Translations under genes and position numbers: made by a program
The notes under the pieces: model-generated
Database searches by the model: none
Told to the model about the DNA's origin: nothing
The model's input: the letters and a program-made list of their open reading frames with translations, nothing else
Source: Bolinopsis microptera
Lineage: Eukaryota > Ctenophora > Tentaculata > Lobata > Bolinopsidae
Assembly: GCF_026151205.1 (NCBI RefSeq)
Contig: NC_087079.1
Location: 7,554,635 to 7,618,634, forward strand
Direction of reading: 5' to 3'
Length of the DNA stretch: 64,000 nt
Shown: one piece after another, positions 8,459 to 44,074 of the stretch
Layout: the number at the start of each line of letters is the position of its first letter
How positions within the stretch are numbered: position 1 is the first letter of the stretch

Positions 8459-11400
8459 CTCAGATTTACAGCGTTTTTGATTAGAGATAGTGGTGTTTAG
8501 CAACGTGATTAAAAGGAGAATTTGTAATGGATCTTTGCTTAAGTAATTGTAATGATATCGTTTTCCTCACTTTACTTCCAAGTATTTTTTAAGAGAGGCT
8601 GAGCCTGAATGGCCCACAAGAGAATAGCATGAGGATGCTCTGCCTGCCTCTGGGGTATGGCAACCCTAGGGGAGGTTGCCAGAGATAAGGGCAATGTGTA
8701 TAATAGTATGTCCAGGTATCAAATGATAAATCTTACCTGAGTTCGCTGATGTGTATAATAGTATGTCCAGGTATCAAATGATAAATCTTACCTGAGTTCG
8801 CTGATGTGATAGACTCAACAACCACCTCATCTCTGAAAACAATGAAACGTTTTAATTTAATGTTCAATGCCTAAACAAGTAATCACAACCCCGTAAGTCC
8901 ATACCCACATTAACCTCTTTCTATAACTCCATAACACGCGTTACAACCACCCCTACCCCTCCTCCCCTACCCCTAGTCCCTACCCCTCCTCCCCCTATTA
9001 CAACCACCCCTACCCCTCCTCCCCTACCCCTAGTCCCTACCCCTCCTACCCCTATTACAACCACCCCTACCCCTCCTCCCCTACCCCATTACAATCACCC
9101 TACCCCTCCTCCACCCTACCCCATTACAACCACCCCTCCTCCCCCTACCCCTCCTCCCCCCATTACAACCACCCCTACCCCTACTCCCCCTACCCCTCCC
9201 CCTACCCCTCCCCCTACCCCTCCTCCACCTTACCCCATTACAACCATCCCTCCTCCCCCTACCCCTCCCCCTACCCATCCCCCTACCCCTCCTCCCCCTC
9301 CTCCCCCTACCTCTCCCCCTACCCCTCCCCTACCCCTCCCCCTACCCCTCCCCCTCCCCCTCCCCCTCCCCCTCCCCCTCCCCCTCCCCCTACCCCTCCC
9401 CCTACCCCTCCTCCCCCCATGATAGTAACCCTCTAAATCTAACCTCAGATCACTGGAGTCGTCTCTGTCACTGAGGTCTGCAAGACAGGGCTCCAAACTA
9501 TCCAGATCACTCTCGCTGACCCCGTACTCCATCAGCAGTAGACATGCCGGACACGTTTCATCCTCCACCACCTCCGGCTCCGGCTCTGCTATCTAGATAA
9601 ACAATGTTGGTTAGGCAGTGAAACACCACAATTCGGATGAAATCTTCGTATTTGAGTATTTGTTCTACCTTAGTCGGTAATATTATGGGGGGGGGGGGGG
9701 GGGATTATGGGTGTTCAAAAATATGGACTGTTAAATAAAATATATGGTTCTTTGGCCCAAAAAGAACCAAATTTGACCCCCCACAATCTTAAATGCAACT
9801 TTCCTTTCTTGAAAAATCTCTAATCGAAAATGTTGATCAAATTGTTTTGGCAATTATAACCACATTTCCGCGTTCACACCAAATTTAATATTTCATTAGA
9901 TATCTGATCCCTATCAAGTGCTAAAGTTCTCAATTAAATCAATGTTTATCACAAAATACGATCGAAAATAGAAATAAAATCGTAGAAAGTCTCAGTTAAC
10001 CCCTTAAATTGAAAGGATAGGGGGAATAGAAGACAAATCGGACTTTTTGAACCAGAACTAGCTTCAATTCAGCAAACAATAGCGTAAGCATACTTCTGGA
10101 CGTGAATGAAAGAAAAGTAAAGCATATTATGACTGATATACTAAAAGGAAAACCAAAATTTGACTCGGGGGTAAAATTTTGGGGGGGGGGGGGGTAAAAA
10201 TATGGACTGTTATAAATATGGTTCTTTGGCCCGAAAAGGACCAAATTAGACCCCCCATAATATTACCGACTAAGGTACATCATTAGTCCTATAATAGTAT
10301 AATGTATAAAACACTTAAGTCTTAAAAACATTGTAGGTTTATAACCTACCAGGACGCGCGCCGAGTTGGACTCGTTACGTCGACGGTCCTAATATTTGGA
10401 ACAAATATTTTACGAGTATCACCCGTTAATAAAAACACTACAAATTGGAGCCTAACGAGTCATATAAATGATTTTACGACACATGTTCTTATAATCCAAA
10501 ATTTCCGATGATCGATACACAGAACTCATTTACTGTTATGAATATAATTATCTTAACTTCCGACTTTTTAACAAGCAGATAGGACCTCGTGACATTTGTT
10601 TTTAAATCTCTCTCATTTAAATGGAATTGTTTGAAATCTGAATTGACCCAGATCTAAAAATAAAGTATACCGCTTTGCAAGTCGCATATACAAAAGATTT
10701 TATCAATAGAATTTATCAATAGAGAATAAAATTGAATTAAATTCTTTGCGGTCTATTTTAAACTCGCGAGCATGCAAATTTGACAAAGAATGTACCGACA
10801 CTTTAGCGTATGTAGTGGGACACGAAGCTTAGCAAGTGTTGCTCCTTTATAAACAATTCAGTTTGAGAAGAACTATTGAAACATTTCAGAATTAAAAAAG
10901 TTCCAGCATTGATAAAAAATGTATCTAAACAAAAAAGATATTTTGAATGAACGGCCAACTTTTGCTGCTTGCAACATTCTGCACTGACCAGGTTGATATG
11001 AGTAGTACTAGTAAGTAGACTTGGATAAAGAAATTTTTGCAGATCAAAAACCTGCACCAGATGAAAAGCATAAACGTTTCGAAATCCATCAGTTTTCAAT
11101 ATAAAACAGACTTCATAATAACTTCCAAAATCTCTCAGTTCTTGAAAACGTCCTCTACTATAACCAAATGTCTAAATCTAATAGTAATCAAGATAACACC
11201 CCTAACCTAACTGTAACCAACCTGAACTGGGGGAGGAGGTTTAGGTCTTGTCATGGGGCGTCTCTTAGTGAGCTTAGGATAGTTGATGATAGGAGCAGTC
11301 CTGGGTTTAGCGATAGGTTTGGGTCCAGGAGTGGAGAGTTGGGTGATGGTCATGGAGAAACACGCCTGGGGTGGGCGAGAGAAACATTCCTTTGGGGGCC

Positions 11401-18900: not shown

Positions 18901-21900
18901 TAAAAATTGCCGATGTGATATTAATCCCATGACAAGCACTGGTGCTACTCATATAACTGCTTAACTGTTGGCGTTGCTGCACGCTATCGAATCACACAGG
19001 CATTTGATTCATTGATTCATGATTGGGATAACAACTACAAGCTCGAATGGTATACCATAATTATACATAATTATATAACCCATGAAGGTACAATACTACA
19101 ATAGTCGTATAGAACATTCCTCTAATATTACCGTTACTTCTGACTCACGGAACGTTATCAAAGTTCATATATGCTACTCAAAATTGTTCGATAAAAAACT
19201 AAATTCAAAGATATTGTGAATTACAAAATGTATCTTCATGAATATCTTTCTTGTCCAGTCGAAGTTCTCTTGTCGAACTTTAGTACGTGTCGAACTAAAC
19301 TCCAGGTAGCGTAACCTAGTTCGACAGAGTCGAACTTTAGGGTTTGTAGAACTACAGTACGTGTCGAACTAAAGTACATGTACCGAAACGAACGAACTTG
19401 TAAACAAAACTTAAAAAATAACAAAAAGTTCAAAAATTCCAAACAACAGCTACAGCTCAGTGTTGATTGCAGCAATGTACAGATGCTTTAGATATTTGAT
19501 GGTTAAAAATATTAAATTGTATGTTATTCCGTGCCGATATCATAGGCAGTCCCTTTCTCTCCCCACCAAAACGCACTCTGCGGACACATCTTGATGATCA
19601 AAATTTATGATTTACAATTGTTCAGTCGAGCAAGCTCATTCATGGCTTGTGAAAAATAAATTAAACGAAGGAACTTGTAAACAAAACTTTAAAAATAACA
19701 AAAACTTCGAAAATTCCAAACAACAGCTCAGTGTCGATTGCAAGTGCTAAGCTCCTGCATAACCAGCTGCGTCACTTTTCCCAGGAAGTTGCGCTCGTCG
19801 CACTCAGCGGACACCTCCTGCACTGCACCGGAGCGCGTCGCACTCTGCGGACACCTCCTGCACTGCACCGGAGCGCGTCGCACCTAGCAACTCCTCCCAA
19901 CTCACCACAACGTCATGTACCAAGTAACTTGCTAGCCGGCTGCATCTACCGTCGTAGTACATCGCAGCAATATCTTCAATGCGCAGCGCGCGTGAGAACA
20001 CATTCAGTTGGTATATCTCCCCGCCAAATGCTTGGTTCACATCAAAACCACCGCCCAGTGAATCCTGATCTTGTCCGACAATTAGAGTGCCACAAGAATT
20101 GTTGAGCCTGGAAGTGGTAGTCACGTGGGACTTAACGAGGACCCCGTTCACGTGGAACTCCATCAGACTTGAAGCGGAGCTCCATACCAAACAGAAGTGA
20201 TACCATTCGTTCTTCAACAAAACCAAGTCAGTCCACTCCATAACATCTGTGTTACCGACTACGTTATGGTACCAGTCGGATAACATGAGCTCGTTGAAGC
20301 GCCCCGGTACTGCGTAGCTGAACCAGATGTGCTGGGCGCGCGGGTCCAGGAACTTCTTCATCCATGTACACACGGACACAGCGGTGGTAACTTTAGAGAA
20401 GTCAGGGTTTAGCTTTATGTAGTTGTTGGTGGATACCTTCTCGGGGAACCTCAGGTAACTTTGGAGAAGTCAGGGTTTAGCTTTATGTAGTTGTTGGTGG
20501 ATACCTTCGCGGGGAACCTCAGGGTTTAGCTTTATGTAGTTGTTGGTGGATACCTTCTCGGGGAACTTCAGGGCTTTGTTTAGAGAAGTCAGGGTTTAGC
20601 TTTATGTAGTTGTTGGTGGATACCTTCTCGGGGAACCTCAGGGTTTAGCTTTATGTAGTTGTTGGTGGAGACCTTCTCGGGGAACCTCAGGGTTTAGTTT
20701 TATGTAGTTGTTGGAGGATACCTTCTCGGGGAACCTCAGGTAACTTTGGAGAAGTCAGGGTTTAGCTTTGTGTAGTTGTTGGTGGATACCTTCGCGGGGA
20801 ACCTCAGGGTTTAGCTTTATGTAGTTGTTGGTGGATACCTTCTCGGGGAACCTCAGGGTTTAGTTTTATGTAGTTGTTGGTGGATACCTTCTCGGGGAAC
20901 CTCAGGTAACTTTGGAGAAGTCAGGGTTTAGCTTTATGTAGTTGTTGGTGGATACCTTCGCGGGGAACCTCAGGGTTTAGCTTTATGTAGTTGTTGGTGG
21001 ATACCTTCTCGGGGAACCTCAGGGCTTTGTTCCATTGGTCAGTGTCGGCAAGGGAACCGGCGATAAGACAGAGAAACAGGACAGCAAACATTGTGGGTAC
21101 GGTGAGAAATAAAATTAATATGGTTGAATCTTTTAATCAAAAGTTGGGAGTTCCGCCGTCCCATATAATGTGCAAATTATCCGTTCATTCGTTTCATTCT
21201 CAAACGTAATTAAGTTATTTTTTAATCAAAAGTTGGGAGTTTCGCCGTCCCATATGTGCAAATTATCAGTTCATTTAATGAACATGTGGCGATTTAATAG
21301 AATTTGGGGGAACCAACCCGTTATGATATTAACAATCAGGAACACCTCAGACTTTTTGCATCATAAGTAAGACTAGAATGATCTAAATCCAATATTCTAA
21401 ACATTCAATACCTTCCTTCCCCCCCCCCCCCCCCTCATAGGCAGTCCCTTTCTCTCCCCCACCAAAACGTGTGTAATGGTGTGTAACGAAGTGGCGGTGT
21501 ATAATAAACGACCTCAATGGAGATTATATTGAAAGTAAATTAATCGCAGGTCGATAATTCACAACAGTTTTATAGCAAATAATCTTGTAATATCCTGCAT
21601 ATCACTATGAATATTCGCATAATTAATCCCAGTGAGTACGTGATTTTAGCTTTCCCTTAGCCCTACTCCAGTTCGCATATATATATACAAGAATTGCGCA
21701 CTGCAAAAAGTTCGTTATTTTCAACATTTTAAAAACTTGCAACGTTTCAATGCGTGCTAAGACCAATATAGCAAACATAGTGGGTAAGGTGAGAAAGACT
21801 CCTTAAACGTAATTAAGTTATCTTTTAATCAAAAGTTGGGAGTTTCGCCGTCCTATCTGTACAAATTATCCGTTCATTTAATGAACATGACGTGGCAATT

Positions 21901-24900
21901 AAATAGAATTTCGGGGAACCAACCGGTTATGATATTAACAATCAGGAACACTTCAGACTTTCTGCATCATAAGTAAGACTAGAAAGATCTAAATCCAATA
22001 TTCTAAACATTCAATACCTTTGGTTTTATAGCAAATCTTGTGATATCCTGCATATCACTATGAATATTCGCATAATTAATCCCAGAAATGAGGACATCGC
22101 CAGTTTTGTAATAATAAAGGGCACTTTAAAGCGGTAAATGGCTACACAATATTTTGTCTGCAGCCTGTAAGGGGCCTGGCCTGTGTAGTGTGTACGTGAT
22201 TTTAGCTTTCCCTTAGCCCTACTCCAGTTCGCATGTACAAGAATTGCGCACTGAGAAATGTTCGTTATTTTCAACATTTTAAAAATTTGCAACTTTTTTT
22301 TAAAGCGTGCTAAGTATTATGATTTATAAATATTCAAATAAGCAGTCAAAGAAACGAAGTGCTACCCTTAAATGGTCAGGACTAATTCTTCTGACTTTCA
22401 TTTTGCTTATTAATTCCTTGATAATCTAACTATTATCGAAATCAAGAAATTAGGACCCTAAAATAAGTGAACGTACCAAGCTGTACATTGTCAAAAATTC
22501 AAAGAATGTACAGTACAAGGTACCTTTAAATTAGATGTACAATGAGTACACTCTTCTACAGTTAGGAATAGTTTACAAGGCATTTCAACACTGAATTTGA
22601 TATGATGCTAACTAGTAGTAGAAGCAACAGTAAAAGTATAGTAAAATTAGTAGCGTTTGTAAAAGTAAGAGAGCCAATAAAAGCAACAGGTAAATTAATA
22701 GTAACAGAGAAATTAACCAAGTATAAAGAATATTATTAATATTATGAGCATAATATAATCATAGTTATTAGTATTATAATTATATAATTAAGTATAAATA
22801 TCAAACCTAAAGTGAACTCTGCGATGCTGAGACCACAATCCGCGGCTGTCTTCAAATGGAACAGAGCACTCTTGTTATCAGCCGTTTTATCCTCTTCAAA
22901 CCGTCCCATGTAGTGGTAGAGAGCCAGATCAAAGTGCACCTGTCAGAGGTTAACAGACTTCAAACACAAGGAAATATTCTTAAAAGGGCTGTTCGTTACG
23001 ATGCCGAATGAGATGACATTAATTGAAGTTCTTTGAAGAGGACCTCAAGTGATTATCTGACATGAAAACATCCAGTTTTTCTATATTATCCTCTTATTAG
23101 CTAATTAAATGCAGTTGCTATAGATATCTGCTGGTTGAAAATATTGAATCAAATGTAATTCTGATATCTTATCGGAGATGAATGCTGCCTTGTTCATTCT
23201 AGTGTGTTTCTTACCATATTATAATATGTATTGTGTTATGCATAATCGGGATAATCTTAATATTCACGTGCATATTATAAACATTACAATTCTGTATTCT
23301 ACAATTATACTAGTTTATACACTGTTTAACGAGATTTATCATAATATATTTATCATAATATGAGCCAAATTTCTGATTTTTGTTTCGAATGTTCAAGTAT
23401 ATCTACTAAAATTACCATATCCTCTCCGCGAATTTTATCTGTAAGTTTGAGATTGGATAAAAGCGCGGCATTATTTTTAGGTCAATGAAGATATCCTGAC
23501 TTTAATGTGAAAATATAGCTTTCTAAAATGATTCGGTGAAACTATTTTACAAGTAAGAGGGCTAATAGCATGATTATTAATATGTACTTAAAGTACCACA
23601 TAGTATAGTATGTAATGTGTATGAGCTGTATATCGTATAATCTTCACTATAAATTAAAATAAAGAAAAGAAGTAACCTGTCCCAGTATGGTAGCCCGTTC
23701 CTCCTTCTCCTTAATAGGAGCCCTTGTGTCCATTATATCGCTAGTACTGATATCGCACGTGTCGCTAGTACTGATATCGCACGTGTCGCTAGTACTGATA
23801 TCGCACGTGCGCTTGCGCGAGCTGGTGGCTTTCATCACACAGGAGGGACGCCTGTTGTTTGAGCCGTACAGCTGTGATCTTTTTAGCTCCTCCTGGTTGA
23901 GAAATGTAAGGGTGGTTTAACCAGATTTAACAATGAATTTAATAAAGATTTTATAAGCCAACCATGTATTTATTCTGTGAATAACTAAGTTACAAAAGTC
24001 ACGTTTGAAAAGCACGTGGACCAATAATAATTTCACAAAAGCTTTTATGTAATAGAAATTTCGATATTACTTATTTTAATTATAATTGATTATAATAAAT
24101 TTAAATTAGAACATACTGTGTCCCAGGCCTGATCGGGGGTATCTTCAGGAGCATCAAAACTGCTAGACGGCAAGCGAATCTTTGGTATTTGCTGCCCCAC
24201 TCCACCAACATTGTTCAGGTTAAACTGGTTTTCCTGGTAATTGTTATCACATGCTATTAATGTTACAGATAAACTATTGGAAAATATCGTGTCTTATTAT
24301 ATCAGGTAACAACGTTTTTGAATGTGATAGAAATGACCTGTTGGATATTCCGCCGGTTTAAGGCACTAACAAGCTTTGATATTCGACTTAACAGCTCAAA
24401 TTTCTAAATTTTATAAGTATAATATGAATAGTGAATATACAATTTTCTATTCTTAATAAACAATTTCCACGCCGTTGTCCTATCATTGCAGAATTATGCT
24501 AACAAGTCATGAGAGTATGTTGGAACCTCGCCAAAAAGTTGAAACAAATAAAGTACCTTTCTACCGATAGAACCCTCGTCAATACCGCTGTCAATAAAAA
24601 CATCCCTCTCAACTGTAGACTTCCCCTCACTTTCCATAGAGCTGAGCGAGCTACTCCCTGTCACGTGGGTTGTATGTTAATTGTCACGTGATTTGTATGT
24701 TAATTGTCACGTGGGTTGTATATTAATTGTCACGTGATTTGTATGTTAATTGTCACGTGGGTTGTATATTAATTGTCACGTGATTTGTATGTTGATTGTC
24801 ACGTGGTTTGTATGTTAATTGTCACGTAAATTGTAACATTTGTAATGTTTTTTTTAATAACAACTTTTCTTGAGGTTTAAAAACCTTAATTTGAATCGTT

Positions 24901-27900
24901 TAACGAACCAACGAATCCTTTAAAATATCCTAATTTAAATTGTAAAACAAACTTACTCAGGCAAGTTTTTCCGTCCCCAGTAGTGGTTGTTCGTTTCCTC
25001 TCCTTGGTAGTTAAATCGAACCTGCTTAGTCCTGGGGAAAAGGTCAAAGTAAGGTAAAAGTTATTTTTATTCTATTATTAGTCATCACTACGCTCTAAAT
25101 TATTGAACAACTATTGAACAATTATAGAACAACCTCCCATTTCACTTACAAAATCCATTGATGACGTTAAAATGTACCCGATAATCTTAAGTTATAAATA
25201 AGCATATCATAATTTTATGTATAATACGCCATGAAGCTTAATAAGCTAATATATTACTGCAATATATTACTGTCACATTGCAGCCACAAACCTACTATAA
25301 CCCAAAGATACAAAAAGCCTCACCTAAAGCCTCACATATAACATTACAGCGGTGTGTGTTGAAAAAGAGAGCAATACCCTTAGTGGCCAGATTACCACTC
25401 CCGTACCCCTCCCCACTGTAGGTGTGTATCTGGGGGTCCGTGTACAGGTCTCCTACTCCCTGTACATCTACCACCATGCACTTGTGCCCCGACGCTTCAA
25501 ACGTAAAGTGGGAAAATGCCTGCGGAGGGAATTGTGTGAGGGAATGCCTGCGGAGGGAGATGTGTGAGGGAATGCCTGCGGAGGGGGATGTGTGAGGGAA
25601 TGCCTGCGGAGGGAGATGTGTGAGGGAATGCCTGCGGAGGGAGATGTGTGAGGGAATGCCTGCGGAGGGAGATGTGTGAGGGAATGCCTGCGGAGGGAGA
25701 TGTGTGAGGGAATGCATGCGGAGGGAGATGTGTGAGGGAATGCCTGCGGAGGGAGATGTGTGAGGGAATGCCTGCGGAGGGAGATGTGTGAGGGAATGCC
25801 TGCGGAAGGAGATGTGTGAGGGAATGCCTGCGGAGGGAGATGTGTGAGGGAATGCCTGCGGAGGGAGATGTGTGAGGGAATGCCTGCGGAGGGAGATGTG
25901 TGAGGGAATGCCTGCGGAGGGAGATGTGTGAGGGAATGCCTGCGGAGGGAGATGTGTGAGGGAATGCCTGCGGAGGGAGATGTGTGAGGGAGTGCCTGCG
26001 GAGGGAGATGTGTGAGGGAATGCCTGCGGAGGGAGATGTGTGAGGGAATGCCTGCGGAGGGAGATGTGTGAACTACATGTTGGATGCCAAATTAGTAATG
26101 TACAGAGTGATAGTTATAATTAGGGTGCAACTGTAATCGGTTGAATGGGTTTTGTAAAAGAATAGCCATCATGGTCTTTTAACAGCTGTGGAAACGTTAA
26201 TCTGATTCTAAATTCTAATAAGGTTCAGATACGATAAATCTAGCGGTCGACCTCATGACCAGAAAAGTGGCCGTATTTCTTATTTGAAATCTAATTGTGA
26301 GTCTAGCACATGATCAGATAATGCTGGGCTCTTAGAGTGTTATATTACAAACATCGCGTGACTCTGCTACTCTCGACTGTGTGAGGTCATCACTCTGTGT
26401 TGTTCCTTTCTCTGTGCTTTGTTGTAGCCTTGGATCTTAAATTTAACTTACTTTTTCATTTTCGAATTCGGTCGCCGAACGTGAGGTGCGATCTGTGTCA
26501 TTTTTTGATAATTGGGGGTCGTTCACATATTACGTAATCAATATTTTAGCAACTTTTACCCCTCTACCCCCTCCGTAATCAACCGTTATCAACCGTTATC
26601 AACCGTAATTAAGACCCCCCCCCCCCTCCTGACAGCAATATTACGTAATTATGGCCTGACCCCCGGCCCCCCCCCCCCCCCTTGATTTTTTCCCCTAGAA
26701 AACACTTTTCTCTACGTCTCATGCTACCCTTATCATGCTATCATGATGAGCCGACATCATTGTTATGATATCCGCCAACCACCTTCTAAACTACTTACCA
26801 TTAGTATTAGTATTATAGTCGGATATTCGATCTATTTCTAAATTTTATCACTATCAGAGTGCAATTGAGTGCAATTTGAATTCAATATTGTCACATTTTT
26901 ATTATTCTAGAGGGCAAAAAAGAAAATTTTGAGTACGTAATCAACGACCACCCCCCCCCCCCCCTCCCCCGTAATCAACCGTAAGCATTTGGAAACCCCT
27001 CCCCCTCGGCTGATTACATAATATGTGAACGACCCCTTGATGTCTAATCATATTGTCTGATTTTCCTAACCAAATACAAATAATTGCTCCCTACTTTCAT
27101 ACTATCAATAAATAATATATATTATATTGATACAATATACAAATTATTGAAAAGTATATTACTCCCACTTCTAGTTATGGAAGAAACAATTCTACTAATG
27201 CTGAAGGATGAAGATCCCCTCAATGTTTCCAAGCAGTTACTTGTTGCTGATAGCGCAATGTTTCGCTATCTAATAGAAGAGATGCACCAAGTGGAACTCG
27301 AATTTGATGATTTCTTGGCGGAAAATGTAACGCTGTTTATCACTCTGTTGGATGATAGGGAGCTGGGGAATGTACATAACGGAAACTTCAGGGAGTTAAA
27401 TAAACTTGCGGAAGTATTTGTTATAGATTGGATGAAGGAAGAGTGTAGACAGTGGTTAAAGAAGAAGGCGGAATGTGCAAGGACGGTTTGTGTTTGAAGA
27501 ATGCATGTACACTATCAGGAAATGGGATAATAAAGCTATGATGAACGTTTTATTGTCGGAATTAACGCATCAAGACAACTCGTCTTTTGTGTTGGAATAT
27601 ATGACGGGTTTAGATGAACAGGACACCGGTCAAATAGACAATATGATAGTTCTCGGAGGGAGCAATACTGAGCCGTTCCTTCGTACTATTCTAGCGAACT
27701 TGGAAGGAAAGGTGAAACTGGACGAGAATTTGAAGTATCTCCTCCAGCAGATGAATCTAGCCCTGAGTTTCGAACAAAACAAGGAACTTTATCTTGAGGT
27801 TTATAAGACAATTGAAAACCTACCAGAAATATCAGTAGGTGATATAAAATGTGTTCTCCAGTTGTCGACGAAAACAACTTCATTAGTCAGTTCCCGTAGT

Positions 27901-30900
27901 GAAGCAAGAAGGTTGAGAACTACTGAGGTGGATGATACGAAGAAATATGTAGACTTAGTGATCAGTTGTAAAAAGATAACAGATATCACAGACGCAGTTC
28001 TGGGTAACAAGGTGACGTCTGTGTTTGTTGTTGTTGAACTGCTGCTCCGTGTTTACTACATCAAAACACCCAGTACAGAGGAGACACGAGTATTCATGAC
28101 AACACTAGAGGAATGTTGCAAGGAGAAAAAACTGCAGAAAGTATCGAAAATATTTTTGGGAATAGTAATCAACGCCTGAAACTATTCTCCAAAAGTACAA
28201 AAGGTTGAACTTATCGCAATTTTGAATGAGATAACGAACAATGATAATCTCTCAACCCACCATGAGAACATACTCATTAAAAGTGATCAGTATATCGACG
28301 TGTCACCAATATCAGCACAAAGATTAGTCAGTACTGTGAAACATGCTATGACAGGAGATAAGAGTATGCCAGTAGGTACTGTGTACAAGCGTCTCTTTAC
28401 ATTCCGACATCCCAGCACAGTGGAGTGTACAGAAGCTGGTAAATGTGGTTTTATATTAAGAGGCAGTAAACAAGACGAGGATAGTTATATAGAAGAACTG
28501 TCTACTAACAGTGAAGACTACGAGGGTACAGGACTACATCTACACGATGTCGTGTCTGGTAGTGACATGTACAGGTATAGCTGTATAGGATATGCTCAGG
28601 TAACACAGCTCCTGATAACATTATTCAAGTGGCAGGACGGTGGTGGGGGTGGGAGTGGTGGTTACCAGATGTAACTAACTGGGTGTATAAACAGCACTGT
28701 GTTGAGTATGACATATCTGATTACGTTGTTACTAAAAGATAACAAGTTCGATTTTAAAACAGAATTAGTATTAACTATTAGCTAGATATACAATTCGGCT
28801 CGATTTCGTAATATCAGAGTATCAGTTAGATCAATATTTATTTAGTTTCTTTTATAGTTCATTTAGTAGTTTAGTTCAAATACTTGAAAATTGCACGTAA
28901 TTTTCTTGTATTTTACTCTTGTACAGAACGTGTTGAATGCAAAATATTGGGTATGCGTGCCAATCGCTATGTTATTTTAGTTGCATGATTCAAAATATTC
29001 AATGTTGTTGACAGTATTGTGAACTATTTTCAGTTTCGTAAATGATTTTAGTGAATAACACTAGTAGCAGTATATTGACAAATCAACACAAATTATTTGT
29101 AAGAATGACATTTTATTGTTCTACTTTCAAAACGTTACAATTACTAGCAGGAACCCGTATAATATAACCCTAAACGGTGTCAAGACTCAAGAGACTAAAA
29201 TAATTATTACCTATTTAATTGGCGTTTTTGACACCACTTGGGGGTCCAAATTTTGGGCTCTAAAATCATTATTCCTTGGCCAATTTTTATTTTTTCATGC
29301 TGATTTGTAGGCCATTAAAGCATTTGACCCAGTCAAAAAAGTTTCAGTTGTATATCTTTTACGGTTTTTGCAGAAAGTCGCGTTAAAGTTGATGCCGTGG
29401 TGTCAGTAAAATGGCACAGATATATATATATATATATATATATTTTGTAGCTGTACTCCTACACATTAAAAGTCGGTGTTGATTAGATCTTCGAAATAAG
29501 TCTTTGCATCATTTTATTAAACATCGTTATCTGAGATAAAATTGTTCTAAAAGCAACTGGAATATTCACAAATCTTTAAAATAACTTACAAACTAGGAAA
29601 GAAAAACAAGTCTTAGGAAGACGTACAAAACTATGTGACTTAAAACGGTACAAAACTAAAATATACTGAGTAATAATCAAACGAAAAGAATATATATATA
29701 TATATATGTAGCTATTACCTTGCTAGTTATGAGTAAATTTTTGCCTTCCATCAATTGAGTGCAGCTTTCAGTTTCAAAATTTTCAGTTTATTCAGATTTT
29801 TCGTTTTCGATATTGCAAATTTTTAATAAATCATGTTCAGATTATGGTGATAATGGATGTAAAGGTACTTCAACCGAATTAACAATCCAACCGTGTGTAT
29901 GACGTGTCCCAGTAGCCAATCATAATATATGTATTTCTACCGGTGGCACATACTGGATGGCGGTTAGATGAGTACACTACTCTCACAAGCATCTCGAGTC
30001 TCTCGGTGATCCTGCCTCCACACCACACTCAGTCTGGACTCCCTTCCGGCCGACCGAACTATTTTCCTAATATCTCCTAATATAACTTTGATCGAACAAG
30101 CCTAAATTCATGATGCACTATAAACTTGATTTGAGACAGAAATTTTAGACAATTTATCTGCTTACGTGTAATTTCAAACTCTTATCAGTTACCATGTCTT
30201 TTATCTAATTTTTATCAGCAGATTTATAAATCTGCTGTTCATTTGTAGCTATTACCTTGCTAGTTATGAGTAAATTTTTGCCTTCCATCAATTGAGTGCA
30301 GCTTTCAGTTTCAAAATTTTCAGTTTATTCAGATTTTTCGTTTTCGATATTGCAAATTTTTAATAAATCATGTTCAGATTATGGTGATAATGGATGTAAA
30401 GGTACTTCAACCGAATTAACAATCCAACCGTGTGTATGACGTGTCCCAGTAGCCAATCATAATATATGTATTTCTACCGGTGGCACATACTGGATGGCGG
30501 TTAGATGAGTACACTACTCTCACAAGCATCTCGAGTCTCTCGGTGATCCTGCCTCCACACCACACTCAGTCTGGACTCCCTTCCGGCCGACCGAACTATT
30601 TTCCTAATATCTCCTAATATAACTTTGATCGAACAAGCCTAAATTCATGATGCACTATAAACTTGATTTGAGACAGAAATTTTAGACAATTTATCTGCTT
30701 ACGTGTAATTTCAAACTCTTATCAGTTACCATGTCTTTTATCTAATTTTTATCAGCAGATTTATAAATCTGCTGTTCATTTGTAGCTATTACCTTGCTAG
30801 TTATGAGTAAATTTTTGCCTTCCATCAATTGAGTGCAGCTTTCAGTTTCAAAATTTTCAGTTTATTCAGATTTTTCGTTTTCGATATTGCAAATTTTTAA

Positions 30901-33900
30901 TAAATCATGTTCAGATTATGGTGATAATGGATGTAAAGGTACTTCAACCGAATTAACAATCCAACCGTGTGTATGACGTGTCCCAGTAGCCAATCATAAT
31001 ATATATATATATATATCGTCTCGCTTTATATATAGTAAGATTGGCTATCTCAGATCATAAGTAGAATTTTGACATGATTAATAAAAATTAAAAACAATAA
31101 CGTTCGTATTCTTTCGTATCAATTATGAAATTTTCGAGAATTAGTGGCAGATTTGGTTTTCTGAACTTATTTTTTCGCGATGTTTCTTCAAGTGTTTTAT
31201 GAGGTTGCTATTTGCTATCTATTTTGTGCCCGATGAAGTCAGCAAGCAGGTTAGCATGTCTTCAATAATATCCCTAGTAACCAGCTGCTTGTAGAATCTG
31301 TCTTAAGGTCTTAATACGGGAAATTCCAAACACTTTTAAAATCTTGTTTTTCAACTACTCCTCCCACAGATTCCACAAATATAAATTATAATGATTTATC
31401 AGTTGTAGTAGCCTGTAGTAGCCTGTAGCAGCCTGTAGCAGCCTGTAGCAGCCTGTAGCAGTCTGTAGCAGTCTGTAGCAGCCTGTAGCAGCCTGTAGCA
31501 GCCTGTAGCAGCCTGTAGCAGCCTGTAGCAGCATGTAGCAGCCTGTAGTAGCCTGTAGCAGTCTGTAGTAGCCTGTAGTAGCCTGTAGCAGCCTGAAGTA
31601 GCCTGTAGTAGCCTGTAGCAGCCTGTAGCAGCCTGTAGCAGCCTGTAGTAGCCCCTGTCAACAAGATGTGAACATCTCGCCATCTAACCAGAAACTTCAC
31701 GGTCAATTAGCTCGCCCAGTAAGATTATAGTGCCCAGGTGTGTACACTGTACCTGTAGTATAAAGCCAATTATATACACATAATATATAATTTATCGGCC
31801 GGGTGGTGTAGTGGTAACACGGTCGCCTCCCAAGCAGAAGACCTGGGTTCAAATCCGGTCGGATGCAAGTCGGCTAGTAACCAAGCTGTGATTTGGTACA
31901 GCTTCGGCTGGTGATACACACTCTCTGGCTCGTAGGACTAACCCCCGTCCCCCCTACAGCTAGTATAGTGCCTCGGCACAGAGTGGCTTAGGGTTACTGA
32001 AAAGGAGATAAGCACCTCAGGCCATCCCAACGTTCGGGAGAGACCTGGCCTTGTATCTTGTTGTTGTAATATATAATGAGGGGCACTCAGAATTAAATTG
32101 TGTTCTGTTTGGAATGAGCGAGGTCATATTTTCGCACCGTTTTAACTACGAAAATGTGTTTTCGAATATAATAGGCGGGTTTATACTTTTGCATTTCAAC
32201 TGCGATAGTGAAGTCCCGGCCGTAGGCACGGGTTACACTAGTATACACATTACACATAATACCAGTCCGACATGTTATGCAAATGAGATGATCACCTGTG
32301 AGAGGTACAAATCTCCAGGTGGTCCAAACTTCTTCACTGGTCTAGAAGTCTGAATACTTCTTCACTGTTCTAGAAATCTCACATACCCTCTCATAGTTTG
32401 ATGAGGGCTAACTCTTAGACGCTCTAAAGTCACGACAATTCGGCTTCATGACAGAGTTGTGTATAATATTATACATATTTATATTCCATTCGGACACGAA
32501 GGGAAACACACCATGTTCGGCTTGAATCCTTCGTAAATATATATATATATTATGATTGGCTACTGGGACACGTCATACACACGGTTGGATATATATATAT
32601 ATGTATAAACTACATCTTTACAGCCTAACAAATTATTTGTTACATAGTAGTGATTAGTGTTGAAAGCATTATAATTGTAGTATTAGATTTTTGGTATGAT
32701 CGAGATTGATTGCTAATATATATATATAATATAATATATAATATGATTGCGCTTGGAGAGAAATGTTACCAGTGCTCTAAAACGCTCTATTATATTAGTA
32801 TATTAATGAGCTTACACATGGTAAGAGGGTACGGACCTCTATGAAATTGTAATGAGACTTTCGTTTAAATACTCGACTTAATCTGAGCCAGGTTTTGAAC
32901 CGATCAGGGTTGCTTCACTTCTTATCACATTCACATTATACAGTCAGTTTGGTATGTAGCTGTACTGTTATGTAAGTTGAGTAAATATTTAATCTAATAA
33001 CAACAAATTATTTCTAACAGCAGACAATATTAGTTACATTTTATTAATGCTTTTCAAACAAAGTTAAAACGAATTCTTCATGTATAGTAGTGCATCCTGG
33101 GTTTGGACAGGATATGACCCGTTTAAAATATTTCCATCACGTTACATTACATAATTCTCAATAAATGTAATAGATTTGTAGTGTTGTAATTAGTATTATG
33201 ATTTTAATACGCTATCAGTTACCTGGGGAGTGTTCCGGCAAATATGCTGAGAGTTGCTTTCCACATAACCACTGTTGGAGTTGTACTTCACATACTCACC
33301 CTCTGAAACACGTACAAATTAAACAGTGTTTCCCTCTGAAACACGTACAAATTAAACAGTGTTTCCCTCTGAAACACGTACAAATTAAACAGTGTTTCCC
33401 TCTGAAACACGTACAAATTAAACAGTGTTTCCCTCTGAAACACGTACAAATTAAACAGTGTTTTGTAGCTTCAAGCTGAAATTATTGAGAAAACATATAT
33501 ATGGGGGGGGGGGGATAAGCCTGGCCCATTGATACCCATGCCCATTTGACCAAAAGTTGAGGAATAAATGGGCATAATTTTCATAACTTAAAATTAAAAT
33601 TAAAAATTTCTCACAATAGGTGGAAAAAAGTCCAAAATCGCCGAAAAAGGGGACGTTTTTCTCCCCTTTTCGACTCTCGGAAGCGTGAACCTACCTATAA
33701 CAGACTCCACGTGATACAAAGGACTGTCGGGCCTATCAACAAGCTCAACTATCATCATCTGCATGATGTCTATCTTCTTGGGAGGATTAGCTTTGTTGTA
33801 TTCCTCAGACCAGAATTTTGCGTCCATTTGCAGCTGAATGTCGTCAAAATACGCCTGTCTGTAACGATCATTTTCAATATTTTGAAGCATACTGAACGTA

Positions 33901-36900
33901 AGGTAAAATACTAGACACATAATAATAACAACAAATATAATTTATTAAGGTGCTTTTAATTTAGAATAAGGATTAAGGAATGCTGCCACACATTAATAAG
34001 TGTATTTAACAACACTAAACCCTATCTGTTGGAATAACATGTGTTAGTGTGTTTTAGACAAGTTTCCAACAAATGCTGTATAAAACTAGGAAATAAAACA
34101 GTCTGGACACTCGAGTTTACTTCCAGACTTCTTTACTCTTTTACATAATACAGTGTAGTGATTAATATTACCCCACATAATTAATTAATTGATTAATTAC
34201 CCACATAATTAATTAATTGACTAATTACCCACATCGAACAACTAAGTTTGTCACAAATTTCTTCCAATCGAGATCAGCTGATCAGAAAAAACTTCAAATG
34301 CACATGCAAGAGTTTCAATAATCGTTATCCTTGATTGGGCTTTGTAATAAAATTCATTCACAGCAGGCAATACGAAATTGCAATTTACATGGTCGTATGT
34401 TGATCTGATATCGATACAATATTGTGACTGTGTGATTATATTATAAAGTTACAGCTTCAGCATTAAATTTGCGCACAAATAATTAACATTCAGACATTCA
34501 GCTAACACTTTTAATCATTGACACTTTGACAGGTATAACACAATTTTTATTATTTGTTATATATTATTCCTAAATGATAAAATATTCATAATATTGTGAT
34601 TTGCGAAGTTATCATCGTTAATCTTTATAATATTTGGATATACATTATACATACATTAATTATTTTATGTTTGAAAAGTTCATCGTATATTTATAGATGG
34701 TTTTACTTGATTCCCCTATTATATTATCAAGCTATCAAGGGAAGTTTAGAGTGTCAGTTATTTATAAAAGAAACGATTACAATTTTGAATTTATATCACA
34801 TTATCATTATCCTTTTTTAGATGGAAACATACCAAATAATTTGTTTTATGGAATATTTATTTAGCAAGAGTTAATCCGACACTAAATGGTTTTAAAAAAG
34901 TGTTACTGAACTCTTAGGTAAAGTGGTTGAACAAGGATTTAAGTTAGCTGCATTGCCCAAGTTTGCAAAGTTTTATAAATCGAAATTAAATATATGGGGA
35001 AAATATGGTAGTGACATTTATGATGAATTTATCGAAATGCTTCAATCACCTAACATTATTTTGTGATTTTTATTGTCATATGTTAACTTTTTATTAAGTT
35101 ATAAAGATACTTTTATAATATTAATTGTTTGATTATTTGCGATTAATTTGTATTGATTTATTGTTTGTGACTTACAAATTAGTAATCAATGATTGACTAA
35201 TCATTGTAGTATCGTTTATAAAATTATTGTTAGAATTTAAATTTATATGAAGAATTTAAATGTATTATGAAGAAACACGATTTTGTAGATTCATTTATTG
35301 CTTGTTTAATTTGTATTAATTGTGCTTCTTGATTTATTATTATCTGTATCTGAGATTCTGTGATTAAATATATTTTGTTGATTATAATGTAATGATTGCA
35401 TAATTTATGGTAAATTTGTTATATTTCAGTATAGGTGTAGCCAGTCAACACCCTGGCTCCAAAATATGAAAGACTTGTTTTGATTCTAAATGATAAGCTC
35501 GAACATATCTGAAACACATATTAAAAAACATAGTAAGGAAACTAATCAACCAACCTATCAACAGGACTCAAATACTTTTTGACTACTACATTGGAAAAAG
35601 GCATATTCCATTCTTCTTTTTTATCTTTGTGAGCAAAATCAGCTATACTGCTAAAATAAATTTCACTATTAATTAGCTGAAACAATAAATCACAATAAAT
35701 AGCTGACAATGCTGCAAAAAATCAAGTTTCTAAATCTACTAGCTTGGAATAAGAATACAACCTCGTTGAACGAAGAATTTGCACATGAATCAGTAATAAA
35801 AGTAAGATTAGCTTCACAAGATCAGTAGTTACTATAAATCATTTACTACTGAGGCGATAATCACAAAAAAAGCGCTGACTCAAGAAAATAGTTTTCAATC
35901 TACCTGTCTGATTCTTTGAAGTACTTTTTAGCCACAACATTGGCGAAAGGTAGATTCCAATCTTCTTCAGCACTTCTTGCTGCAAACTTGGACAGCTTTT
36001 TAGCTCGAAAACACTCTCTCATTGCACCATTGGCGAAGGGCTGCAATGGTATTTATGATAGAATTTCCTATTTGAATTACTAGCATTAGAACAGGTACAT
36101 CCTTCTAGAATTGGTAAATTTATTTTTTAACTTCTAAAGAAAGAAGAATTGTCTACCTTTCCATCAATCCTAACTTCTACTTCATCAGAGAAGAATTCCC
36201 TCTTAGTCATATCATAGCGCCACCTCTTAGCTCTTTCAATCGGGAACTGCTCAATAATGTATGCCCATTGATCTTCTTGGTGTGTCTAAACAAGTAGCAC
36301 CGTAAACAGTTTATATATTGTTAATTTCCTTAAACTATTAAACAACAACAGCTCTTGCCTGAAATACCATCATATCTATGTCTCCTAGTCGTTACACTAT
36401 TCCATAATCCCCATAACCCAAGCCTGAAACTTTCCTAATCCCACAAAAGTATAGTTGCCGTTGTGTTACACAAGGAAGCGAATATTGCCTTTACCCCGTC
36501 AACTATCAGTTCATCTGCAGTATGACTAGTATGCAAAAGCCCAAAATTATCCTAAGTTGCTTGAAATTGGTATATCAATTTTATGAAATAATCATGAAAT
36601 ATGTCACTGCGCACTGTGCCCTACATAGACTGAAGGATATCTGGAAATCAAAACTCTCAAAGATTAAGATACGATTGTTCATAGCGGCTTATGAGTCAGT
36701 AATGCTCTACAGATCAGAAACCTGGACACTGACAAAGGCTCAAGAGAAAAGTTTGGACATACACAAAGATGCTGCGTATGGTGCTGGGTATCTCATGGAA
36801 GAACAAGGTCAGCAATATAACTTTGTATGGTAGCCTAGGCTGGCAAAGGAGTTACGAAGCAGGAGATTAAAAATGACGGGACACTGCATCAGACATCCTG

Positions 36901-39900
36901 AGCTTCTTGCCCGTGAGTCTTATGGGAACCTATGCATGGTAGAGCACCAATACCATGCATAGGTTCCCATAAGACTTAATCACTGCTCTGAGCACAGCAA
37001 GGACGGCCAAGACAAAGCTACTTGTCTATGTTACTGAAGGAAGTTGGGAAAAATTCTAGAGAAACTGCGAACCCTGATGCGGGACAAGGATATAAAGAGG
37101 GGGTTATCTGGCGTAGATCGGACTTAGTTTACATAATTGATAGCTTTTCTTGATATTGCTCTATAATTACATTTATATCTCTCCCGGCCATTGGTTCCGA
37201 GATTTGGTTGATCTTTGTTTTCTTGGGCGCCCTCCTTGAAGTCTTGTTGTTGTACATACATCTCCTGATTTATCCTGTACTTACCTGTTTATTTCATTTT
37301 CTGGCGTGAGCTGTCCGCCATGCTACGGTACGAGAAACAGCGGCAGTGCAAGATCCGGTTCTAAGAGATTTTTATGGTCGCGAAGAATCTCGCCAGGCTA
37401 CACTGCGTCGGTGGGAGAACTATTTAGGTTCATGACATCTAACGCCCGCCCAATCATGGCAGCCCCATGACAATAGGTTGATGTCCGACCCGTTGTCCTT
37501 GGCCTATCTCGAGTCGTTGGGTCTAGGCGGAAACGCCGAAAGGGATGATGTTACCTTCTTGACTTAAACGTAATGGTAAATTTTTCTCAAAATCCTTGAA
37601 TAAATGGGTAACCCCTAGTAATGTCTTTTCTAGCACTTTTAGATGTTGCAATGGTAGAGGTTGTCTCACTTGCAACAGTTTTAATCCTGTTAATACATTT
37701 AGGAGCAGTACTTTTAATAATGATTTTATCTTTGGACATACAAATTTTATATTTAATTGTAAAACTAATAATGTTATTTATGTTATTACCTGTTCTACCT
37801 GTAAAAAACAATATGTTGGAGAAACAACTCAACCACTTCATAAAAGAGTCAATGGCCACAGAAATTGTGTCAAAGCCAAATCATCCACATTTTTATATGA
37901 ACATTTTAATATTCCTGGTCACGTCTTCTCAGATGCTTCCATACAGATTGTAGATTATGTTGATTCTGACATGTCCACTGATGTCAAAAATGATTTACTT
38001 CTCCTGGAGGATTACTGGATAGAGAAGCTTGGGACAGCATTCCCTCTTGGTCTTAATGACAAGAAGAAAGGAACGGGCAACATCTCCCAAGATCGGGTTA
38101 TGAATTATTTTAGTGGACAGATTGCTCGATACAAACGTGGCAGAGGGAATGGAAAGAAGAAAGTTCAGCCTAAGAAGTCTCTGGATACCATAGAGTCTGA
38201 TATTAACAGGCTGAAAGATAACATCTCTTCAGAACATTCCATATACAAAACATTAAAATGTTATAGCTTATCAGATTTAGACACTCTCTACTCTTTGAGT
38301 CAATATAATTCAGGATTGATTTACAACGTATGTTCCTCTTTCTGTTCAACATTTTCCCCCAAATACCATCAGAACAAATCTGAATCCAGTAATAGAGAAT
38401 TTATAATTGTTCCATTTAATTGCAAATTCATTGATAATCTTAACCTAAAATCTATTTTCTCTGACACTTCAGTCATTGATTTGCTTCCCATTTTGATTCA
38501 GTCTTTTACACCATTACAGATTTATTATGAGTATAATGATCCTATAAGTCTTTCTATTTGTAACTATGCTTCATTCTTAAAGAAACTTTCTATTTCTGAT
38601 ATTAAATCTATTTTAGGTAGTCCATGCGATTGTCACTCCTCCCCTTTCAATTATCCTCCTCATGGACATGTAGTTACTGGTAATTTAGATATTGTTGATA
38701 ATGTTGAACTTAGGGAAGTACTTTCCTACGGTTGTAAATACAGAATTCCCACATTTAAATCTCCAGATGAGATATATATGTCAGTTACCGAAGCTGTCGA
38801 TAAATTTATAAAATCAAAAAGTAGAAAGTACTGTCAAAAAGAAGTAAAGTTCAGCGATTGGAAGGAAAAAGTGTTATCAATAGTTTCCAATCGTATTGAA
38901 TATTACAAGAAAAACTTTCCTGAAACATTTGAAATAAAAGAAAACACACTGGAAAAAGATGATGTTAAAAGAAGTCTTAAATTGCTGAAAAGTAAATACA
39001 TTATTTGTAGTATCGACAAAGCTTCTGGTAATTTTTCATTTATTTGTAAAAAGTTTTATGTAAAAACTCTTGTCAATGAAATGGGTTTTGATCCTAATAC
39101 TCTAGAATGTATAGGTAATGATACATATAAACCCTGTAGCGAAGACGAGACTCATTATGTCAATAAAATATCGGAGAGTCTAAAGGAGAGATTTAATGTA
39201 CAAGTTGAAGATAAAAACTTGCGACTAGCACGCATCTTCTGGAACCCTAAGCTTCATAAGAACCCTTACAAGGCGAGGTTCATTGCAGGTGCCCGTATTT
39301 GCGTTACGAAACAACTTAACGTCCAAGTTAACTGTTGTCTGAAACTTTTGAGGAAATACTTCAAGAAATACTGCGAGGCAATCTACAACAACAGCGGTAT
39401 AAACATGTTTTGGAGCATAGATTCCTCAAGTGAATTCCTTGAAGCTATCAAAAATAGCGATGTTTATAATATACAAGTATATGATTTTACTACTCTTTAT
39501 ACCAGATTAGACTTGATTGAAGTAGAGAATATGATTAATGAAGTTGTTGATTTAATATTTTCAGACCGTAATAGATATATTTGTATTTCTAAAAGAGACA
39601 GTAATACATGTTTCTTTTCCAATAAAACCTATGATTCTCATGCCTGCTTTAGTCAAGATGACCTAAAAGAGGCTGTTAAATTTATTATTTATAACACTTA
39701 TGTCGTCTTCGGTGGGATTGTATTCATACAAACCAAGGGTATTCCTATGGGTGGAAATTCAAGTTCCCCTATAGCTGATCTCACTGTTGGCAAAAAGGAA
39801 TTTAATTATATGAAACGTTTACTTCAGGAAAAGAAAATGGGATTAGCAAAGATATTATCCAATAATAAACGATATGTTGACGATTTATCTATTATTAACT

Positions 39901-41880: not shown

Positions 41881-44074
41881 CTAGTCTGGCCAGACTGTAT
41901 CGGCAGCCCAGAGGTACTTGATCAGATTGGCCTTAAAAGTAGAAATCCGCTCTGACTGCCGGATACATACTGGTAGACTATTCCATTTCAGCATAGATCT
42001 ACGAAAGAAGCTATTTCGGAAGGCATCCGAGCAGGGCACAGTGGTACTCATGTAAGTTGAAGTATCCGACCTATCAATTATTTGAGCATTGTGCCTAGTG
42101 TATCGGGTGCCCTCTGGACGGCATAGGACTATATAGGTAGGAAGCGAAACTGGGATTATGCTATTCACTATTTTATAGAAGGTCATAAGATCGTTATAAA
42201 TAAACTTCTGCATGACAGGGAGAATATTTAGCTTCTTTTGCTCTGTAGAAAGTTTATCGTCATTATAACTCGAGTAGGGTTCACCATTGATCCATTTAAT
42301 AGCCCTCTTTTGGATAGCAACAAACTGTTGAAGATGAGTTGCAGATTGAGGGGACCATATGACAGAACAATGTTCAAATATAGACCTAATTAACGCCAAA
42401 TAGAACGATCTTTTCTGCCTTTTATCAGTAGTGAAATGACATGTTCTCTTAAGTAGTCCAAGTCTGGAGTTAGCTTTGGAAACAAGCGCTTTACATTGTG
42501 CACCCCAATTAAACCTGGAGTTTATTGCGACTCCTAAATCTGACTGAGAGGGCACAAAGTCAATATCACTTCCAGAAAGTTTATAGAAGAAGGTATTGAA
42601 TGGCAAGTTATCCAGCACGTTTCTTTGCAGGGACACAGAGAGGGCTTTGCACTTTTGTGGATGGAACTTCATTCGATTTCTCACTGACCAATCATACAAT
42701 CTATTGATGTCATTTTGGATTATGTGATGGTCAGGGTAACCAAGAATCTCCCTCCAAATTTTAGTGTCATCTGCATAAAGGGCGATATTGGTGCCTTCAG
42801 AGACACAGGAGAACATGTCATTTATAAATATTACAAACAATAGAGGGCCAAGTATAGAACCTTGAGGGACACCAGACCGAACTGGTAGAGAGGAAGACGT
42901 TTGGCCTCCTATCACTACTTGTTGTTGTCGCCCCTCAAGATAGGACTTGATAAATTTAAGCATTAGTCCATCGACTTTAAAAATATTCTTTAATTTACTT
43001 AAAATGAGGTCATGCGAAACGCTATCAAAAGCTTTCGCAAAATCAAAATATATTATATCAGTCCTGGACCTGTTGTTCAGTGCAAGTGCAAGATTGTCCG
43101 TGAAAGGTATCATTTGGGTTGTGCATGAACGTTCATTAACAAAACCGTGTTGTCGGTCATCCAACAGATCAGAACATGCAGCGTATAATGCAGTCTTTAT
43201 GCACCTTTCAAAGACTTTCATTACAAGAGATGTTAACGAGATAGGCCTGTAGTTCTCAACCGAAGACTTATCACCCTTTTTGTGCACTGGTACTACAAGT
43301 GCCAGCTTCCAATCAGGGCGTATGCATCCGCTTGAGAAAGACAGGTTAAATAAAACACTAAGTGGGTATGCAAGGCTTTGGGCACAGTTTTTGAGGACTT
43401 TCCCATGAATCCCATCAGGGCCAGGGGCCTTGTTAGGATTTAACTTTTTAAGAATCAACAGAACATCTTCTCTATTAAACACAAGACTGGAAAAACAATC
43501 ATCACGAAAATCTATGTCAATGCCATAATCGCTCTCTTGAGAAAACTGCTCATAAAAATATTCGTTAAAAAGGGCAGCTTGATCAGATGGATTGTTTCGA
43601 AAGCGATTATGATATTTAACAGTTTCAGGGATCCTGGTTGACTTTGATTTAGACTTAACGTAGGTCCAGAATTTCTTGGAGATAAGAGCATCATCGGAGT
43701 CATCCTCAACACTGAGTCTCATTTTTTCGTCCATCATATTTTTAAATTTTGTTCGAAATGCACGAAACTTTTGTTTATGCTTTTATGAGACTCAGAGTTG
43801 CTCCCCTTATGCCTTATTCTCCATTTCTCCTTATTTCGTAGGAGACGATCACATTCGGAGTCATACCATGGAGGCTGGAACTGAGACTTAATGGTCTTTT
43901 TAGGGATCCATCGGTCACAGGCTGCATCAAGAACTCCTCTGAATCGACTCCAGGCAAGATAAGGATCATTACACTCAAATATACTATCCCAATCGATGCT
44001 AAATAACTCAGAATTCAGGCCCCTAAAATTACCTTTACTATAATTAAAGATCTTTCTTTTAGGCTGCTTAATAG
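41881..44074 (-). mobile_element. CR1/Jockey-like LINE: reverse transcriptase part of ORF2
   Basis: The 618-residue frame (43737-41881) has NKAPGPDGIHGKVL, VVPVHKKGDKSSVENYRPIS, IIYFDFAKAFDSVSHDLILS, SGVPQGSILGPLLFVIFIND and the catalytic YADDTKIW, then thumb and C-terminal LINE motifs ending WNSLPVCIR. Upstream, 44070-43790 encodes the endonuclease-RT linker (KRKIFNYSKGNFRGLN). A one-base loss in an A run near 43785 (SHK/KHKQKFRAFRTKFK) breaks the frame between them. The RT itself is uninterrupted. Confidence 0.92.

Follow-up and report, generated by a model that had tools for sequence, protein, structure and literature searches.

A 28-bp minisatellite built from the intron 5-exon 6 junction of EEF2K in the ctenophore Bolinopsis microptera

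The stress-controlled kinase EEF2K is encoded on the reverse strand of a 64,000-nucleotide stretch of the Bolinopsis microptera genome (contig NC_087079.1, positions 7,554,635 to 7,618,634), which is called the window here and to which coordinates refer unless stated otherwise. In this gene a 28-bp minisatellite repeats the coding exon 6 acceptor about 20 times; its unit holds both sides of the exon-intron boundary, and in anatomy the array matches the minisatellites named mirages in amphioxus. It probably arose by neutral tandem duplication of the boundary, as in the amphioxus mirages and in the donor repeat of human ABCA7, with the exon-proximal copy being the one used for splicing. The features on which the argument leans, all on the reverse strand, are the following (a slash in a sequence marks the exon-intron boundary).

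25515..26071: 28-bp minisatellite (Tandem Repeats Finder, TRF: period 28, 19.9 copies, 98% matches, score 1072; unit GCATTCCCTCACACATCTCCCTCCGCAG)
25520..25521: AG of the exon-proximal copy, the true acceptor of coding exon 6 (junction TPQ/AFSHFTFE by spliced homology, human 7shq and P0077)
25743-25716: unit 8, with a broken acceptor (CAT for CAG; per-unit table)
26052..26079: most upstream, partly unique copy (per-unit table)
25324..25519: EEF2K coding exon 6 with the alpha-kinase core VVDVQGVGDLYTDPQ, donor TTTAG/GTGAGG (homology and P0077 mapping)
25520..33222: EEF2K intron 5, 7703 nt, with the array at its end (P0077 mapping)
33223..33302: EEF2K coding exon 5, EGEYVKYNSNSGYV...TPQ (P0077 mapping)
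33299..33463: second array, at the acceptor of coding exon 5 (TRF: 33 bp x 5.0, 100% alike; unit ...GTACGTGTTTCAG/AGGG)

Anatomy of the exon 6 array

The initial annotation of the window had reported some 20 tandem copies of the exon 6 acceptor, a count with which the TRF result agrees. Stepping back from the acceptor by 28 bp gives 20 registers, namely 19 whole units and a partial 20th with divergent first bases, and this partly unique copy presumably preserves the intron side as it was, in single copy, before the duplication. Each copy combines exon-start bases, a polypyrimidine tract and CAG; the consensus is matched exactly by 14 of the 19 whole units, the deviating ones being units 1, 3, 8, 11 and 17. 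While every unit had been said to carry an acceptor, CAG is kept in 19 of the 20 registers but is replaced by CAT in unit 8. The unit begins 5 bases within exon 6, with GCATT exact and nine of the first 12 exon bases alike, so that what is multiplied is the whole junction, beyond the intron end. The description of the array as built from a 3' splice site is thus correct in that the acceptor is repeated, but too narrow in that exon bases are repeated with it. In the second array, each of the 33-bp copies ends TTTCAG/AGGG.

Outside the array, a genome search that skipped simple repeats and common words returned four matches to it, 66-68% alike and all on contig C10, three of which overlap at one place. 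A dispersed repeat family was accordingly rejected as a source: recurrence at high similarity was lacking in this search, and L002, the one match that was read and one of the three overlapping ones, belongs to another satellite, rich in purines.

Exact copy numbers in long-read assemblies can be off, which speaks for the idea that the copy number, or the array itself, was produced by the assembly. The published B. microptera genome was assembled from PacBio reads with wtdbg (PMC10232365). Such an artefact is nonetheless extremely unlikely, considering the private changes in units 1, 3, 8, 11 and 17 and the presence of five junction arrays with different units.

Gene model and the acceptor in use

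The identity of the gene is given by a composite of five exons, all 235 residues of which align to human EEF2K in PDB (7shq, E 5e-84), and by the predicted protein P0077, 'eukaryotic elongation factor 2 kinase-like isoform X2 [Bolinopsis microptera]', which maps to the window as 16 coding exons separated by 15 GT-AG introns. The exon next to the array is the sixth of these, and its earlier numbering was therefore right. The junction is of phase 0, exon 5 ending with ...ICRNTPQ at 33223 and exon 6 (AFSHFTFEASGHKCMVVDVQGVGDLYTDPQIH) starting with AFSHFTFE at 25519; TPQAFSHFTFE is found unbroken both in human EEF2K (7shq) and in P0077, in keeping with the earlier claim that the last unit is the real acceptor of the exon carrying the alpha-kinase core.

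P0077 skips the 28-bp array, and at each of the two EEF2K arrays its exons are joined through the exon-proximal acceptor; as judged from this model, the splicing of exon 6 apparently keeps to the copy next to the exon. Across the five junction arrays found in the larger sample considered below, the exon-proximal copy is in each case the splice site placed by homology (5/5). Local strength does not single it out: when acceptors are scored by a simple hand-set scheme, the exon 6 acceptor in use reaches 4.36, below all 19 upstream copies (seventeen at 5.36, one of these without AG, one at 4.95 and one at 5.78), and all five copies of the 33-bp array tie at 2.87. Because the used exon 6 acceptor scores lower than the copies upstream of it, we infer that signals on the exon side, rather than the strength of the site itself, decide the choice.

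A coding array, retained in the message, was also considered since the 28-bp array is open in three frames and forms one long open reading frame (ORF) with exon 6. As the main form it was rejected, because the upstream exon supplies the exact TPQ (best score 64.3 vs 38.2 for the next) and because the array is skipped in P0077.

Reading frame and the isoform question

With a 28-bp period, every third upstream acceptor had been expected to give an in-frame, stop-free insertion, and this holds for the upstream registers tried (1-7): registers 3 and 6 are in frame and join stop-free to AFSHFTFE, while 1, 2, 4, 5 and 7 hit a stop, register 7 having no AG in any case. It can be imagined from this that the array generates isoforms, the upstream acceptors being in regulated use and every third one inserting 28 residues, or a multiple, before the catalytic core. 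Consistent with such a role, the array is open in all three coding-strand frames, CAG is intact in 18 of the 19 upstream copies, and the label isoform X2 of P0077 implies that other isoforms exist. Yet we regard it as quite improbable, considering that five of the seven tried registers stop early, that a C-rich unit is stop-free by its composition, that AG has been lost in one copy, that the insertion is absent from the model P0077, that arrays are not in excess at junctions, and that the neighbouring 33-bp array stops in all four of its upstream registers. Use of the 18 intact upstream acceptors, giving a small regulated share of EEF2K mRNA with inserts of 28, 56 or 84 residues, or its decay, is likewise very doubtful; if it did occur, the number of splice-site copies would act in this comb jelly as an inherited, rapidly mutating control of kinase output.

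The period is divisible by 3 in two of the five junction arrays (33 and 27), one of these being the 33-bp array with its stops. In the dUTPase array a stop is met in 5/5 tried registers (upstream use), and in the hnRNPH-like array also in 5/5 (downstream donor use). The IDH3A array is open in 5/5 tried registers, where use of downstream donors would add nine in-frame residues per unit, and of the five it is the one at which isoforms would cost least. Close relatives of IDH3A, P0197-P0199 (90-94% identical, on contigs of 1.3-1.5 kb), read GIEHT(V/I)VPGVVQ without any insertion, which agrees with what is predicted from the use of the exon-proximal donor. Neither the periods nor the frames of the five junction arrays show any sign of a maintained frame or of selection for isoforms.

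Junction arrays in 264 kb and the comparison with chance

The sample was formed by the window and the next 200 kb of the contig, together 264 kb with a G+C content of 38.5%, of which arrays of period at least 10 span about 13.8%. Homology placed 64 splice sites in five genes: EEF2K (15 introns), IDH3A (6), NTHL1 (4), hnRNPH-like (4) and dUTPase (3). P0077 served as the query for EEF2K, and human proteins for the other four genes. Before the count, RPS29 and TMA7 were dropped for having a single useful match apiece, and a PQBP1-like gene because low-complexity matches swamped it; a cathepsin gene, a pentraxin-like gene and further genes in which few introns, or none, had been placed were recognised but left unused. 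A splice site was taken to be inside an array when at least 3 array bases stand on each side of it, a definition under which the 24659-24835 array near the exon 8 acceptor of EEF2K was left out. The arrays added by the larger sample are, with coordinates also given on the window plus 200 kb:

L009:6786-6952 (100786-100952): IDH3A donor array, 27 bp x 6.2, homology-placed
L010:4020-4703 (108020-108703): hnRNPH-like donor array, 47 bp x 14.6, homology-placed
L011:1406-1980 (115406-115980): dUTPase acceptor array, 44 bp x 13.1, homology-placed

Five of the 64 sites lie inside arrays, namely the two EEF2K acceptors, the dUTPase acceptor, the IDH3A donor and the hnRNPH-like donor, and five further sites lie outside an array but at most 30 bases from one. 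Exact exonic bases are part of the unit in each case (5 at EEF2K exon 6, 4 at exon 5, 8 in dUTPase, 7 in IDH3A and 26 in hnRNPH-like), 19 of the first 20 exon bases being alike in the dUTPase unit. The splice dinucleotide is likewise carried along, AG being found in 19/20, 5/5 and 13/13 acceptor registers and GT in 6/6 and 14/14 donor registers.

No enrichment of arrays at these splice sites was found: 5 of 64 compares with a rotation mean of 8.61 (SD, standard deviation, 4.96; P(>=5)=0.79), and an earlier count over 42 sites was similarly without enrichment (5 vs a rotation mean of 5.69). The suggestions of the initial annotation that the array might tune splicing efficiency, produce variable kinase isoforms or act as a decoy find no support: the acceptor in P0077 is the exon-proximal one, splice sites lie in arrays no more often than chance predicts, and period and frame are of no help. 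Set against chance, the rate of 5/64 speaks for tolerance of such arrays rather than for selection in their favour.

Two other tandem repeats of the sample resemble donor arrays. At 8694-8808 (reverse strand), a 55 bp x 2.1 tandem duplication carries CTCAG/GTAAGATT and is a candidate donor duplication; at L013:3487-3779 (137487-137779 of the window plus 200 kb, reverse strand), a 45 bp x 6.5 repeat has TTCGG/GTAAGTCA in its reverse complement and is a candidate donor array.

Origin of the array

The array would have started as a short tandem duplication across the intron 5-exon 6 boundary, taking in some 16-23 intron bases and the first 5-12 exon bases, and ordinary minisatellite turnover may then have expanded it to about 20 copies. 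These copies would become the final 0.55 kb of intron 5 and be removed with it, the exon-proximal copy being chosen via the exon side, through exon definition, enhancers or the distance to the next donor. Such an expansion should spare the original exon, which ends up downstream of the array in the case of an acceptor and upstream of it in that of a donor; at exon 6 the original exon and its own acceptor are intact at the downstream end, and the coding sequence is therefore untouched. The expansion would be invisible to the protein provided that splicing keeps to the copy beside the exon, with turnover keeping the copies alike. The same process may also have produced the array at exon 5 and those at other splice sites, acceptors as well as donors, in this genome with its many repeats.

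Several observations weigh against a neutral duplication with exclusive use of the exon-proximal copy. Of the 12 bases in the exon-derived part of the 28-bp unit, 3 differ from the exon. P0077, a predicted protein named isoform X2, presumably has at least one other EEF2K isoform beside it. The 64 sites come from only five genes, chosen because they were recognisable, EEF2K having been supplied by the initial annotation. Finally, random bases of the same introns would be expected to fall inside arrays 11.27 times (SD 2.31), against which 5 is few (P=0.004); junction arrays may thus be mildly selected against rather than free, and junctions, which are not favoured by arrays, may be slightly avoided by them.

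Overall, the EEF2K exon 6 array looks like a tolerated by-product of a repeat-filled genome. If so, this one genome offers many natural test pieces for splice-site choice: acceptors or donors in near-identical copies, as many as 20 to an array, where the local sequence is constant, position alone varies and the copy beside the exon alone should be used.

Comparison with known splice-site arrays

Splice-site arrays are a structure known before, and as far as our searches show, the B. microptera EEF2K array can be filed as a further case in a new phylum, no ctenophore example of a splice-site minisatellite having turned up in a limited literature search. What is new is the ctenophore host, the presence of arrays at two successive acceptors of a single gene, and the rate of 5/64 sites. 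Human IFI6 (6-16, G1P3) is said, reportedly in Nucleic Acids Res in 1995, to carry a minisatellite with multiple splice donor sites, the repeats being used; unlike these donor sites, the EEF2K array consists of acceptors.

The closest likeness is to the mirages of amphioxus, in which 3' as well as 5' intron-exon boundaries are duplicated in tandem, with AG or GT in many of the units; they occur in Adh3, BflGb6, BflGb9 and troponin C and, imperfectly, in PGBD5 (PMC3087553, PMC3902484). Units that cross the exon-intron boundary, carry splice signals along and affect both acceptors and donors are common to these mirages and to B. microptera. The units differ in size, those of B. microptera being 27-47 bp in up to about 20 copies whereas 150-160 bp are given for BflGb6 and 10-72 bp for Adh3, and a ctenophore host and two consecutive acceptors of one gene (EEF2K) also set the present case apart. 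In amphioxus, two BflGb6 haplotypes carry 6 and 3 units and regular splicing was found by reverse transcription PCR (PMC3087553); unlike this record of length variation and transcripts, the B. microptera array is known from one assembly and a predicted model. The name mirage was coined in a cephalochordate, a group to which B. microptera does not belong, but the host group does not define the mechanism. If the reading as boundary duplication is right, the phenomenon extends to ctenophores, far from chordates.

In human ABCA7, a variable number tandem repeat (VNTR) of intron 18 has a 25-bp unit in 23.7 reference copies, the GT of the exon 18 donor being its first bases; one unit is retained at a low level (apparently about 2%), and exon 19 skipping rises with length (PMC5954066). 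Both there and in EEF2K the real exon-adjacent splice site heads a row of copies, but the ABCA7 repeat concerns a donor, is strongly polymorphic and is linked to disease, while that of EEF2K concerns an acceptor. Since the ABCA7 VNTR has measured splicing effects, length-linked exon 19 skipping and low-level unit retention (PMC5954066), dosage tuning was kept as a rival explanation, in which array length alters exon 6 splicing, by skipping or by a frameshift leading to nonsense-mediated decay, and copy number sets the EEF2K level. Most of the wrong registers tried do stop early, as this would call for, but the amphioxus mirages reportedly leave splicing undisturbed (PMC3087553, PMC3902484), and we hold such tuning to be unlikely. 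The EEF2K acceptor array, possibly variable in length, is a testable case of repeat-driven splicing variation.

Tandem duplication is also invoked for intron gain, in the Rogers model through duplication of AGGT (PMC3087553) and reportedly in potato RdRp (PMC4974935). Splice signals are brought along by the duplication in both situations, but a new intron arises there, whereas in EEF2K an existing junction confirmed by homology has been multiplied.

Other repeats in and around EEF2K

Further repeats accompany the gene, two of them within or beside its later exons on the reverse strand:

24659..24835: 23/46-bp array reaching the A of the exon 8 acceptor AG, first exon base 24657 (TRF and P0077)
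23738..23813: 24-bp in-frame coding minisatellite within coding exon 10, the CDISTSDT repeats of which are retained in P0077

TCACGTG is common to several arrays of otherwise differing units, e.g., 24659-24835, 44948-44996, 46395-46446 and 59433-59483. Between exons 3 and 4, at 35554-35646 (reverse strand), lies a stretch like the end of exon 3 (EWNMPFSNVVVKKYLSPVDR), preceded by AG and followed by GT; from its sequence the stretch is possibly an alternative or decayed duplicate EEF2K exon. Long retroelement ORFs, which look GIY-YIG/reverse-transcriptase-like and non-LTR-like (LTR, long terminal repeat) by eye, are present in intron 1 (37563-40334, forward strand) and just upstream of coding exon 1 (41884-43782, reverse strand).

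In the pentraxin-like gene (20386-21031, reverse strand), the first coding bases (LRFPEKVSTNNYIKLNP) make an array based on 49 bp with 21 AG/GT sites. A putative intron with AAG/GTATCC near 21006 and AAG/ near 20438 as its boundaries would consist of the array and would join DTDQWNKALRFPEK seamlessly to VSTNNYIKLNPDFSKV, as in intron birth from AGGT. The cathepsin gene of the window has its closest named match in Mnemiopsis leidyi (66%).
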